Of a DNA stretch of 37,094 nucleotides, positions 3,415-6,967 are shown in pieces (the first letter of the stretch is position 1; the number at the start of each line of letters is the position of its first letter). The DNA lies in NCBI GenBank assembly GCA_013178155.1, contig JABLXH010000059.1, forward strand, positions 1 through 37,094, given 5' to 3'. A program made the translations under genes and the position numbers. The notes below the pieces were generated by a model. It worked only from the letters and a program-made list of their open reading frames with translations. It was not told where the DNA came from and did not search any database. The DNA is from Armatimonadota bacterium. GTDB taxonomy: Bacteria; Armatimonadota; Zipacnadia; Zipacnadales; UBA11051.

Positions 3415-3978
3415 GTGATCTCCACTTCTGATTTCAAGAGCGGCCTGACCATTGAGTTGGATGGGAAGGTCTACCAGATTGTCAGCACAGAGTTCCACAA
3501 GCCGGGCAAGGGCCAGGCCGTGGTACGCACGCGCCTGCGGGATCTGGAGACCGGCAACGTGTTCGCCAAGACCTTTCGGTCGGGGGAGAAAGTGGAACCG
3601 GCGCGGGTTGAGCGTAAGGAGATGCAGTTCCTGTACGCCACGGGCGAGAGCTTCGTGTTCATGGATCTGGACACCTACGACCAAGTCGAGCTAACGGCTG
3701 AACAGGTGGCCGACCAGGCCAAGTGGCTCAAGGACGGCGAATCCGTGTGGTTCATCAGCCACAACAACCGCATTCTGGGCATTGATGTGGCCAACACGGT
3801 AGACCGCCGGGTCATCAAGACCGATCCGGGCGTGCGCGGTGACACGGCGCAGGGCGGGACCAAACCTGCGGTCATTGAGGGGGGCGCCACGGTGACCGTG
3901 CCTCTCTTCGTGAGCCAGGACGAGATCATCCGGGTTGACACGCGCACCGGCGAATACGTAACCAGGGTAAGTAACTAA
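3415..3978 (+). CDS. efp: Translation elongation factor P
   Basis: EF-P enters the ribosomal E site and relieves stalling at polyproline stretches. The 187-residue length fits the family and its three beta-barrel domains. The N-terminal KOW-like domain contains the loop HKPGKGQ, in which Lys32 sits at the tip that reaches the peptidyl-transferase centre and is modified in many bacteria. The C-terminal OB region (GATVTVPLFVSQDEIIRVDTRTGEY) is typical. I chose GTG at 3415 because it gives the canonical start MISTSDFKSG and has GGGAGGA five bases upstream. An upstream in-frame ATG region from 3343 overlaps the promoter and is unlikely. The modification enzyme is not encoded nearby. The gene leads the operon and is followed 41 nt later by the accB-like gene. 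Confidence 0.97.
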   Translation: MISTSDFKSGLTIELDGKVYQIVSTEFHKPGKGQAVVRTRLRDLETGNVFAKTFRSGEKVEPARVERKEMQFLYATGESFVFMDLDTYDQVELTAEQVADQAKWLKDGESVWFISHNNRILGIDVANTVDRRVIKTDPGVRGDTAQGGTKPAVIEGGATVTVPLFVSQDEIIRVDTRTGEYVTRVSN

Positions 3979-4019: not shown

Positions 4020-4475
4020 GTGGAAATAGACCGCGACCGTATCCTCGAGCTGGTGCGAATTCTAAAAGCCTCCTCCGCGGCCGAACTGACCGTCGAGGAA
4101 GGGGGCGTGACGGTGCGCCTGGTCCGGGCCCTCACGCCCACCGCGACCGAGCCGGTGGTTACGGTCGCCGCCGGCGATGACCCACCGAGTACGGTACCGC
4201 TGTCCGAAACGCCGGCGCCTGCAGGACCCACCGTTGATACGGTCACCGTGACCTCCCGGTTCGTTGGGCTCTTTTACCCCGGCAGGGGACCTGGCGGACC
4301 TCCACTGGTGGAGGTGGGCCAGGAAGTGGCCGAGGGACAGGTGCTGGGTGTGGTTGAGGTCCTCCGCAAGCCCATGGACGTCACCAGCCCGGTGGCCGGT
4401 GTCCTGGTCGAGAGGGTGGCCGAGGAAGGGGCGCCGGTGCAATACGGCGACCCGCTTTTCGCCATCAGAGTCTGA
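4020..4475 (+). CDS. accB: AccB-like biotin carboxyl carrier protein lacking the biotinyl-lysine
   Basis: In fatty-acid synthesis BCCP carries CO2 on a biotinyl-lysine between biotin carboxylase and carboxyltransferase. This 151-residue protein has the normal BCCP layout: an N-terminal helix and strand (DRDRILELVRILK... LTVEEGGVTVRLVR), a Pro/Thr-rich linker at about 37-75, and a C-terminal biotinyl domain ending in YGDPLFAIRV. The biotinylation hairpin, normally EAMKM, reads EVLRKPMDV. Alignment to the following VAG needs no gap, so Arg116 occupies the lysine site and Lys117 is shifted by one. Arg is encoded by CGC at 4365-4367. It precedes accC with a prepilin-like gene between. Either biotin attaches at Lys117, or this is an unbiotinylated, BADC-like regulatory or structural subunit. 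Family assignment is sure, function is not. Confidence 0.88.
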   Translation: MEIDRDRILELVRILKASSAAELTVEEGGVTVRLVRALTPTATEPVVTVAAGDDPPSTVPLSETPAPAGPTVDTVTVTSRFVGLFYPGRGPGGPPLVEVGQEVAEGQVLGVVEVLRKPMDVTSPVAGVLVERVAEEGAPVQYGDPLFAIRV

Positions 4476-4503: not shown

Positions 4504-4851
4504 ATGCGCCGCCAAGGGTTTGCACTGGTTGAACTGCTGGTCGTGATCGCCATTGTCGCGGTCCTGGTGGTGGCCTATATGGGCTTCCGCAGCAAGCGAG
4601 ACAAGGCGGGACCGGAGACGATCCCCGGGAAAGCCATCCAGAAGGCGGAATCGGTGGAGTGTCAGTCGAACCTTAGCCAGATCCGGCAGATGGTTCAGAT
4701 GGAGGTCATGGATAGCGAGCAGTACCCGGCGCGCATTGACCAGGGCGCGACAGCCAGCATCAGCAAGTGCCCGGTGAGCGGGAAGCCCTATTCGTACAAC
4801 CCCCAGACTGGCCAGGTCTGGTGCACCACCCCGGGCCATGAGAAGTACTAG
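4504..4851 (+). CDS. Type IV prepilin-like (pseudopilin) protein
   Basis: The 115-residue product has a class III signal: a short basic leader (MRRQG) and then FALVELLVVIAIVAVL. The prepilin peptidase would cut after Gly and leave an N-terminal Phe with Glu at +5, as in type IV pilins and type II secretion pseudopilins. After the hydrophobic helix comes a small globular part that ends in CPVSGKPYSYNPQTGQVW, a Cys-containing tail motif seen in pseudopilins. ATG at 4504 is preceded by AGGAG at 4489-4493. No pilus assembly or prepilin peptidase gene is in the window, so it must use machinery encoded elsewhere. Its place between accB and accC, with gaps of 28 and 41 nt, is unusual and looks like an insertion into a conserved pair. 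Confidence 0.85.
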   Translation: MRRQGFALVELLVVIAIVAVLVVAYMGFRSKRDKAGPETIPGKAIQKAESVECQSNLSQIRQMVQMEVMDSEQYPARIDQGATASISKCPVSGKPYSYNPQTGQVWCTTPGHEKY

Positions 4852-4892: not shown

Positions 4893-6254
4893 ATGTTCGA
4901 GAAGATACTGGTGGCCAATCGCGGCGAGATCGCCTGCCGCGTCATGCAGGCTTGCCGCGAGCTACACGTCGCCACCGTCGCCGTCTACTCCGAAGCGGAC
5001 CGAGACTCGCTGCATGTGCAGATGGCTGACGAGGCGGTCTGCATCGGCCCGCCTCCCAACCGCGACAGCTACCTGAACGCTGCTAACATCATCAGTGCGG
5101 CGGTCATCACCGGGGCGGAGGCCATCCATCCCGGCTATGGCAACCTCTCCGAGGTGCCGAGCTTTGCGGAGGTCTGCGAGGCCTGCAAGATCAAGTTCAT
5201 CGGTCCGCCGTCGCACGTGATCAGCAAGATGGGGGACAAGGCCGCGGCGCGCAAGACAATGCAGGACGCTGGGGTTCCTGTCATTCCAGGGAGCGACGGC
5301 CCGGTATCCGATCTCAAAGAGGCCCGTGATATTGCCGCACAACTGGGGTACCCGGTCCGCATCAAGGCCGTCTCAGGCGGAGGTTGGCGCGGTATCCGGG
5401 TAGTGCACAACGCAGAGCAGATCGGCGCCGCACTGGAGGCCGCGCGGGCTGAGGCCAAGGCCGCTTTTGGCAGCGGTGACGTCTACATTGAGAAAGACAT
5501 CGAGGAACCGCGCCACGTTGAGGTGCAGGTGCTCGCCGACGAGCATGGGAATGTGGTTCACCTCGGTGAGCGCGAGTGCTCGATACAGCACCGCAACCAG
5601 AAGCTGCTGGAGGAGGCGCCGTGTGTGGCTGTCTCCAACTCGCTGCGCCGTCGTCTTGGCGAGGCGGCGGTGAAGGCGGCCCAGGCGGTAGGCTACACCA
5701 ATGCCGGCACCATCGAGTTCCTGCTGGACAAGCGGGGCCGCTTCTACTTCATGGAGATGAACACCCGGGTGCAGGTGGAGCACCCGGTCACGGAGATGCT
5801 CACCGGCGTTGACATCGTGCGCGAGCAGATTCGGATTGCGGCGGGTGAGAGACTGAGCATCGAGCAGGGCCGTATTTGGTTCAACGGCCACGCCATCGAG
5901 TGTCGCATCCTGGCTGCCGACGGTGACCGGGAGTTTGCGCCTTCGCCAGGCACGATCACCGAGTGGCAGCCCCCGGCTGGTCCGGGCATCCGTGTGGACA
6001 CCGGGGTGCGGGCGGGCTCCGTCATCTCGTCCTACTATGACCCCATGGTGGCCAAGGTGATCTGCTGGGCACCGGACCGCGCCGCTGCTATCGGCAAGAT
6101 GGAGGGCGCGCTGAAGGGTATGATTGTCAAGGGCATTCGCACCACCATACCCTTCCATCTGCGCTTGCTAGGCAACGCCTACTTCCGGCGCGGGGAGATT
6201 GACACCCACTTCCTGGAGCGCCGTATGCCCAAGTCTGGGGAGGACCGGCCATGA
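4893..6254 (+). CDS. accC: Biotin carboxylase (AccC family) with altered ATP-grasp loop
   Basis: AccC carboxylates biotin on BCCP using ATP and bicarbonate. The 453-residue length and order match: N-terminal domain (ILVANRGEIACRV), ATP-grasp domain, and C-terminal biotin-carboxylase domain. Retained residues include Lys158 in RIKA, EK in YIEKDIEEPRHVE, the Lys of NQK, and the metal/catalytic set in TIEFLL, MEMNTRVQVEHPVTE and ECRI. Unusual residues are a Trp (W165) in the Gly-rich lid loop (SGGGWRG, normally all Gly), NLSEV instead of FLSEN after HPGYG, and HRNQK for the more common RRHQK. ATG at 4893 has GAGGA upstream. It overlaps the next gene (ATGA). Because its carrier partner also deviates, substrate or role may differ from ordinary acetyl-CoA carboxylase. 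No accA/accD is in the window. Confidence 0.93.
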   Translation: MFEKILVANRGEIACRVMQACRELHVATVAVYSEADRDSLHVQMADEAVCIGPPPNRDSYLNAANIISAAVITGAEAIHPGYGNLSEVPSFAEVCEACKIKFIGPPSHVISKMGDKAAARKTMQDAGVPVIPGSDGPVSDLKEARDIAAQLGYPVRIKAVSGGGWRGIRVVHNAEQIGAALEAARAEAKAAFGSGDVYIEKDIEEPRHVEVQVLADEHGNVVHLGERECSIQHRNQKLLEEAPCVAVSNSLRRRLGEAAVKAAQAVGYTNAGTIEFLLDKRGRFYFMEMNTRVQVEHPVTEMLTGVDIVREQIRIAAGERLSIEQGRIWFNGHAIECRILAADGDREFAPSPGTITEWQPPAGPGIRVDTGVRAGSVISSYYDPMVAKVICWAPDRAAAIGKMEGALKGMIVKGIRTTIPFHLRLLGNAYFRRGEIDTHFLERRMPKSGEDRP

Positions 6255-6490: not shown

Positions 6491-6967
6491 GTGAAAACAG
6501 CCGGAGCACGACGCAAAGCGCGCGAGCTGGCCCTGAGCATCCTCTTCGCCGCTGATGTGGGCGGAGTAGGGCCGGGCAAGGCCATGGCCGAAGCAGACCA
6601 TACCTTGTCAGTGCTTCTGGAGGTCTGGGACGTTGGGGAGGACGAGAAGCGAAAGCTCGTGGCTGAGATCGAGGACTATGGCCGCCGGTTGGCGGACATC
6701 TACTTCCGCAGCGCCCCTCAGGTGGACCAGCTCATCAACGAGTACTCCCACGAATGGGCCTTGGACCGAATGCCGGGCATTGACCGCAACCTGCTGCGGA
6801 TCGCCCTGGCCGAGCTGATGTTCTGCCCCGATGTCCCCGTGAGCGCAGCGATCAACGAGGCGGTGGAACTGGCCAAGGAGTACGGGGGGGCCGAATCGGG
6901 CAAATTCGTCAACGGCATCCTGGGTGCCTTCGCCCGCGACCACCAGTCGAGCATCGCTCCGCGGTAA
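6491..6967 (+). CDS. nusB: Transcription antitermination factor NusB
   Basis: NusB with NusE (ribosomal protein S10) binds boxA RNA and promotes antitermination of rRNA operons. The 158-residue product is all-helical with the expected landmarks: ARRKARELALSILFAAD at the N-terminus, IDRNLLRIALAELMF in the middle, and INEAVELAKEYGGAESGKFVNGILGAF at the C-terminus. I chose GTG at 6491; 66 nt separate it from the DUF2273-like gene. It lies in the accC to xseA stretch where nusB is found in many Gram-positive genomes. The gap after it (74 nt) is GC-rich and shows no clear terminator, so it is probably co-transcribed with xseA. Confidence 0.96.
   Translation: MKTAGARRKARELALSILFAADVGGVGPGKAMAEADHTLSVLLEVWDVGEDEKRKLVAEIEDYGRRLADIYFRSAPQVDQLINEYSHEWALDRMPGIDRNLLRIALAELMFCPDVPVSAAINEAVELAKEYGGAESGKFVNGILGAFARDHQSSIAPR

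Follow-up and report, generated by a model that had tools for sequence, protein, structure and literature searches.

A biotin carboxyl carrier protein paralogue without its biotinyl lysine beside accC in Armatimonadota, and its possible BADC-like role in acetyl-CoA carboxylase

Acetyl-CoA carboxylase performs the first committed step of fatty-acid synthesis, and its biotin carboxyl carrier protein (BCCP, AccB) is a textbook case of a protein defined by one lysine. What, then, could be the role of a gene that occupies the usual place of accB and encodes a recognizable BCCP with an arginine at the position of that lysine? Such a gene, whose product we call AccB*, is found in the window analyzed here, a stretch of 37,094 nucleotides from a 5.53 Mb, 96% complete genome of Armatimonadota, near Candidatus Zipacnadia. 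The gene order is efp - accB* - small pseudopilin-like ORF - accC - nusB - xseA, which places AccB* next to accC, with one small ORF in between. The relevant features are as follows:

3415..3978, + strand: efp (elongation factor P), TIGR00038 242 bits; upstream neighbour conserved with AccB* (synteny)
4020..4475, + strand: accB-like gene (AccB*), an ORF with a GTG start, 151 aa; lysine-less BCCP paralogue
4020..4130, + strand: N-terminal segment of AccB*, helix and beta hairpin, conserved as in E. coli BCCP
4236..4472, + strand: biotinyl (hammerhead) domain with thumb, residues 73-151, AlphaFold2 pLDDT ~93-98, aligned to 4HR7 with VIA-align
4365..4367, + strand: codon CGC, Arg116, at the biotinyl-lysine position (E. 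coli Lys122) in the ungapped 4hr7_B alignment; R, G or S order-wide
4368..4370, + strand: codon AAG, Lys117, adjoining the acceptor site; lysine not conserved there
4504..4851, + strand: small single-TM pseudopilin-like gene between accB* and accC, PF07963 N_methyl 28.5 bits
4893..6254, + strand: accC (biotin carboxylase), TIGR00514 665 bits; catalytic residues intact, single copy
6491..6967, + strand: nusB, TIGR01951 120 bits; downstream neighbour

The first-pass annotation placed an arginine at the biotinyl-lysine position with gap-free flanks, and the alignment bears this out. In the reading frame of the ORF at 4020-4475, positions 4356-4370 (GAG GTC CTC CGC AAG) translate to E V L R K. The family profile aligns to residues 2-148 of E. 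coli BCCP (4hr7_B, E 5e-34), and since the biotin hairpin and its flanks need no gap, Arg116 stands on the biotinyl lysine. AccB* consequently lacks the lysine of the EAMKM hairpin that characterizes AccB, and with arginine at that hairpin position it also lacks the lipoyl lysine of a lipoyl carrier or H protein. The protein scores 72.1 bits against the AccB equivalog TIGR00531, below the cut-off of 115.2, and 43.6 bits against PF00364 (Biotin_lipoyl), above the cut-off of that family. A change confined to this assembly, the alternative raised in the first-pass annotation, is at odds with the relatives: all 29 same-family and same-order orthologues beside accC have R, G or S at this site, never lysine. 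An assembly error at Arg116 was thus discarded, as orthologues agree across the order and single-contig genomes show the same pattern; glycine is the acceptor residue in two single-contig Armatimonadota genomes (L127 in G066, 3.4 Mb, and L323 in G145, 5.2 Mb).

Apart from the acceptor, AccB* has the architecture of a bacterial BCCP. Its AlphaFold2 model (mean pLDDT 83, higher in the biotinyl domain) finds its best match in 4HR7, E. coli BCCP in complex with BC (Z 15.8, rmsd 1.0, 77 residues), followed by Arabidopsis BCCP1 (Z 14.9). The model aligns to 1BDO over 80/80 residues, which indicates that the thumb is present, so that both the hammerhead domain and the AccB-type thumb are found. AccB* therefore shares with the bacterial AccB/BCCP of TIGR00531 the fold with its thumb, the N-terminal segment, the linker and the accBC neighbourhood, and departs from it in the missing biotinyl lysine and the sub-threshold score.

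Could biotin be attached to a different lysine, leaving AccB* a carrier after all? The first-pass annotation had named Lys117, directly after Arg116, as a fallback, and a K at this +1 position recurs in several Zipacnadia relatives. However, the sites of these relatives (Candidatus Zipacnadia and Armatimonadetes MAGs) read EALRK, EALRN, ESLRQ, EALGK, EALSK and similar, with K, N, R, Q and others at +1. Because the residue varies among orthologues, Lys117 is no conserved stand-in: K occupies +1 in just 16/77 lysine-less copies. Moreover, given the specificity of biotin ligases, an offset lysine would put biotin out of place on the hairpin. We regard a carrier biotinylated at Lys117 or elsewhere as scarcely credible, and the fallback is not upheld.

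If AccB* does not carry biotin, another protein should do so in this genome. A second accB with an EAMK site, which the first-pass annotation suggested searching for, does exist: a stand-alone AccB with an EAMKLYN site (G000:C171:24098-24529), next to a gene identified by eye from its sequence as homoserine dehydrogenase. A genome search found one AccC, one AccD and one AccA (the latter two side by side), together with two proteins of the biotin/lipoate-ligase family; a second AccC to serve the EAMK AccB was searched for in the genome and none was found. Since there is a single AccC/AccA/AccD set and just one EAMK copy, the gene content points to the EAMK AccB as the only full AccB available to carry biotin for the one acetyl-CoA carboxylase that was found. 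A separate ORF in the same genome (L002:1405-1965, G000:C150) joins a lipoyl-type domain (EIETAKAVV) to a CAKCVACEELI... segment; the sequence suggests an uncommon fusion of a lipoyl domain, in which the partner may be thioredoxin-like.

A degenerate AccC partner was also considered and discarded on account of its conserved catalytic residues: K116, K159, H209, K238, E276, E288, N290, R292, Q294, E296 and R338 are conserved in all lineages wherever the aligned row covers them, and the F84N, N88V and H236N substitutions of this AccC also occur in lysine-bearing lineages. As a separate observation, the ATP lid of this AccC has a Trp at 5385-5387 (TGG, GGGWRG) in place of E. coli G166. All 113 other aligned AccCs have Gly there, as does the AccC of the closest genus (G001), and G166W, private to this genome, is either a one-base private change or an assembly error.

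To place the locus in its phylum, we drew representatives of most families from 201 Armatimonadota genomes and took AccC together with the sequence upstream of it. Lysine is present in 34/111 of the AccBs beside accC and absent from the remaining 77/111, where the acceptor is G, R, S, N, D, H or T, that is, seven residue types. Stand-alone AccBs, on the other hand, have lysine in 45/45 rows, some of them from other phyla; the assignment as stand-alone or operonic follows proximity to accC and so depends on short loci and contig ends, and two efp-linked rows without an accC match that fell among the stand-alone ones (L025 with R, L073 with T) were set aside. Further stand-alone loci from lysine-less genomes have lysine in 30/30 cases, and a stand-alone copy is present in 38/39 genomes checked, the exception (G073) being ~80% complete. 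A VEYG motif is common to lysine-bearing and lysine-less operon copies and absent from stand-alone copies.

How often the lysine went was addressed with a phylogeny (LG+G4, 114 rows) of the AccC proteins linked to these AccBs, obtained by a quick search without a mixture model and with long outgroup branches. Parsimony requires at least 17 switches between lysine and other residues on this tree. Counted as losses, on the assumption of no regain (which is not formally excluded), 18 are needed, 17 once branches with SH-aLRT below 80 are collapsed, and 14 once those below 95 are collapsed. Six families (f14, f17, f18, f24, f26 and f32) include both states. Some losses are old: one spans 30 rows of Zipacnadia relatives and another 17 rows (families f13, f21, f43 and f44), and in both groups the gene is still kept. 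On the AccB tree, which has few columns and was used solely for asking whether efp-linked copies group, these copies mostly do so (6 changes, 2 of them forced by starred branches).

Beyond Armatimonadota, we covered Chloroflexota, Bacillota and a few single genomes; the Chloroflexota and Bacillota loci are those that scored best against a profile built from K and non-K sequences together, which makes the following frequencies rough. Among 17 efp-linked Chloroflexota AccBs, 7 have K, 5 N and 5 Q, with further efp-linked examples having R, N, D and G, while the second copies from lysine-less Chloroflexota genomes read EAMK or ETMK in 11/11 cases. In the Bacillota control no loss was seen (EAMK in 31/31). 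The lysine-less Chloroflexota loci are L211, L218, L222, L226, L227, L229, L233, L234, L236, L238, L240, L241 and L288-L290. Judging from these alignments, the biotin lysine has been lost repeatedly, in two phyla.

A simple explanation would be that AccB* is a redundant duplicate, drifting to loss after the stand-alone AccB took over, with the unneeded lysine the first to go. The very diverse acceptor residue is what an unconstrained position would display, and at many columns the lysine-less operon copies vary somewhat more than the lysine-bearing ones. Pairwise dN/dS, however, is 0.07-0.31 for lysine-less AccB, close to the 0.08-0.22 of lysine-bearing copies (computed for few pairs with a simple Nei-Gojobori script; dS was saturated in several of them), with the adjacent AccC lower, at most 0.14. 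These ratios indicate that the lysine-less copies are under purifying selection, consistent with the first-pass view that this is not simple decay. Drift is also opposed by reading frames that are still intact, next to accC across Armatimonadota and next to efp in Chloroflexota, by the strong conservation of the fold residues G106, G133, V146, G149 and L152 (E. coli numbering) in lysine-less copies, and by the retention of the gene after the two old losses. We therefore consider a decaying duplicate quite unlikely. Purifying selection and synteny do not by themselves name the function of AccB*, and since the tip residue varies widely among lysine-less copies, the acceptor tip offers no positive signature of a new interaction.

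By analogy with plant BADC proteins, AccB* probably belongs to acetyl-CoA carboxylase as a subunit that takes no part in catalysis and has a structural or regulatory task. It would be a pseudo-BCCP that has lost the biotin lysine but keeps the fold of BCCP with its thumb, as well as the N-terminal segment and the flexible linker. Without biotin it would carry no carboxyl group, and the catalytic shuttling would fall to the stand-alone EAMK AccB, working with the one AccC and with AccA and AccD. AccB* would then bind AccC, true BCCP or both, in place of a second biotinylated carrier, and thereby either help the AccC-BCCP subcomplex to assemble or dilute the active carriers so as to tune flux, as has been described for plant BADC.

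Plant BADC proteins lack the biotinylation motif and have been described as the glue of the BC-BCCP subcomplex, and earlier as inhibitors (PMC11926652). AccB* resembles them as a BCCP paralogue without the biotin lysine that coexists with a biotinylatable BCCP in the same organism, here the EAMK copy at G000:C171 and likewise in other genomes. It differs in being bacterial, in lying beside efp and mostly accC, and in having lost the lysine at least 14 times, to several replacement residues. As the losses nest among lysine-bearing bacterial AccBs, the sequences suggest convergence rather than descent from plant BADC. The parallel drawn in the first-pass annotation is thus good as a functional analogy: AccB* is likened to BADC in its working, and membership of the plant family is not claimed. 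Non-catalytic subunits of the acyl-CoA carboxylases of some bacteria, cited as glue in PMC11926652, embody the same proposed idea of a non-catalytic assembly helper; the likeness is one of description only, and unlike them AccB* is a BCCP paralogue. Our search of the open-access (PMC) literature yielded papers on plant BADC and on the evolution of carboxylases in general (PMC3199775), and no earlier report of a bacterial lysine-less BCCP.

The two roles ascribed to BADC bear directly on what AccB* would do. As a purely competitive inhibitor, it would fill the BCCP sites on AccC and lower activity, its dose set by the efp-accB*-accC cluster; the position of accB* just upstream of accC would tie the amounts of the two proteins, and inhibition is how the in vivo work on plant BADC was interpreted (Salie 2016 and Keereetaweep 2018, both cited in PMC11926652). 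Later plant reconstitution, however, speaks for glue (Shivaiah 2020, cited in the same paper), and a fixed ratio of inhibitor to target would give little control. Pure inhibition is accordingly an unlikely reading, if the strongest of the competing ones. Between assembly and flux tuning, we lean to assembly, because operon copies with and without the lysine have their position, their fold and the VEYG motif in common, as if the non-carrier job were older than the loss of the lysine.

The remaining neighbour in the cluster raises one more alternative, namely that AccB* no longer belongs to acetyl-CoA carboxylase and serves another process, for instance together with the pseudopilin-like protein encoded before accC. 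A similar single-TM ORF fills the accB-accC gap across much of Armatimonadota (loci L010-L192), which would fit such a partnership. Yet lysine is missing (D or G instead) also from the copies of L126-L128 and L131, where hardly any gap remains, and lysine-bearing copies have the same pseudopilin-like neighbour, making a role elsewhere very improbable. In the gap ORF itself, a pilin-like methylation motif at the N-terminus is accompanied by the conserved residues ECxxNLxQIR ... CPVxGxPYxY ... C, and in some members the prepilin GFxxxE site is lost. A membrane protein within an acetyl-CoA carboxylase gene cluster might anchor the enzyme.

Returning to the non-catalytic subunit, a broader version, which we put forward tentatively as a real possibility, is that the phylum-spanning efp-linked BCCP orthogroup became an obligate non-catalytic subunit once carriage had moved to the stand-alone AccB; the lysine would then have been lost independently at least 14 times in Armatimonadota and again in Chloroflexota, and this would be the first bacterial BADC-like system, arisen by convergence. 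A loss recurring at least 14 times, and in two phyla, is beyond what a view of the single locus could show. That the lysine is lost again and again beside accC while the gene is kept points to another job, apart from carrying biotin, that matters enough for a BCCP to be preserved. Whether plant BADC is glue or inhibitor is disputed, and the question may thereby be approached by comparison over many natural bacterial replicates, single-contig genomes included. Finally, annotation by neighbourhood, which takes the accB beside accC or efp for the biotin carrier, would name the wrong gene in much of two phyla.
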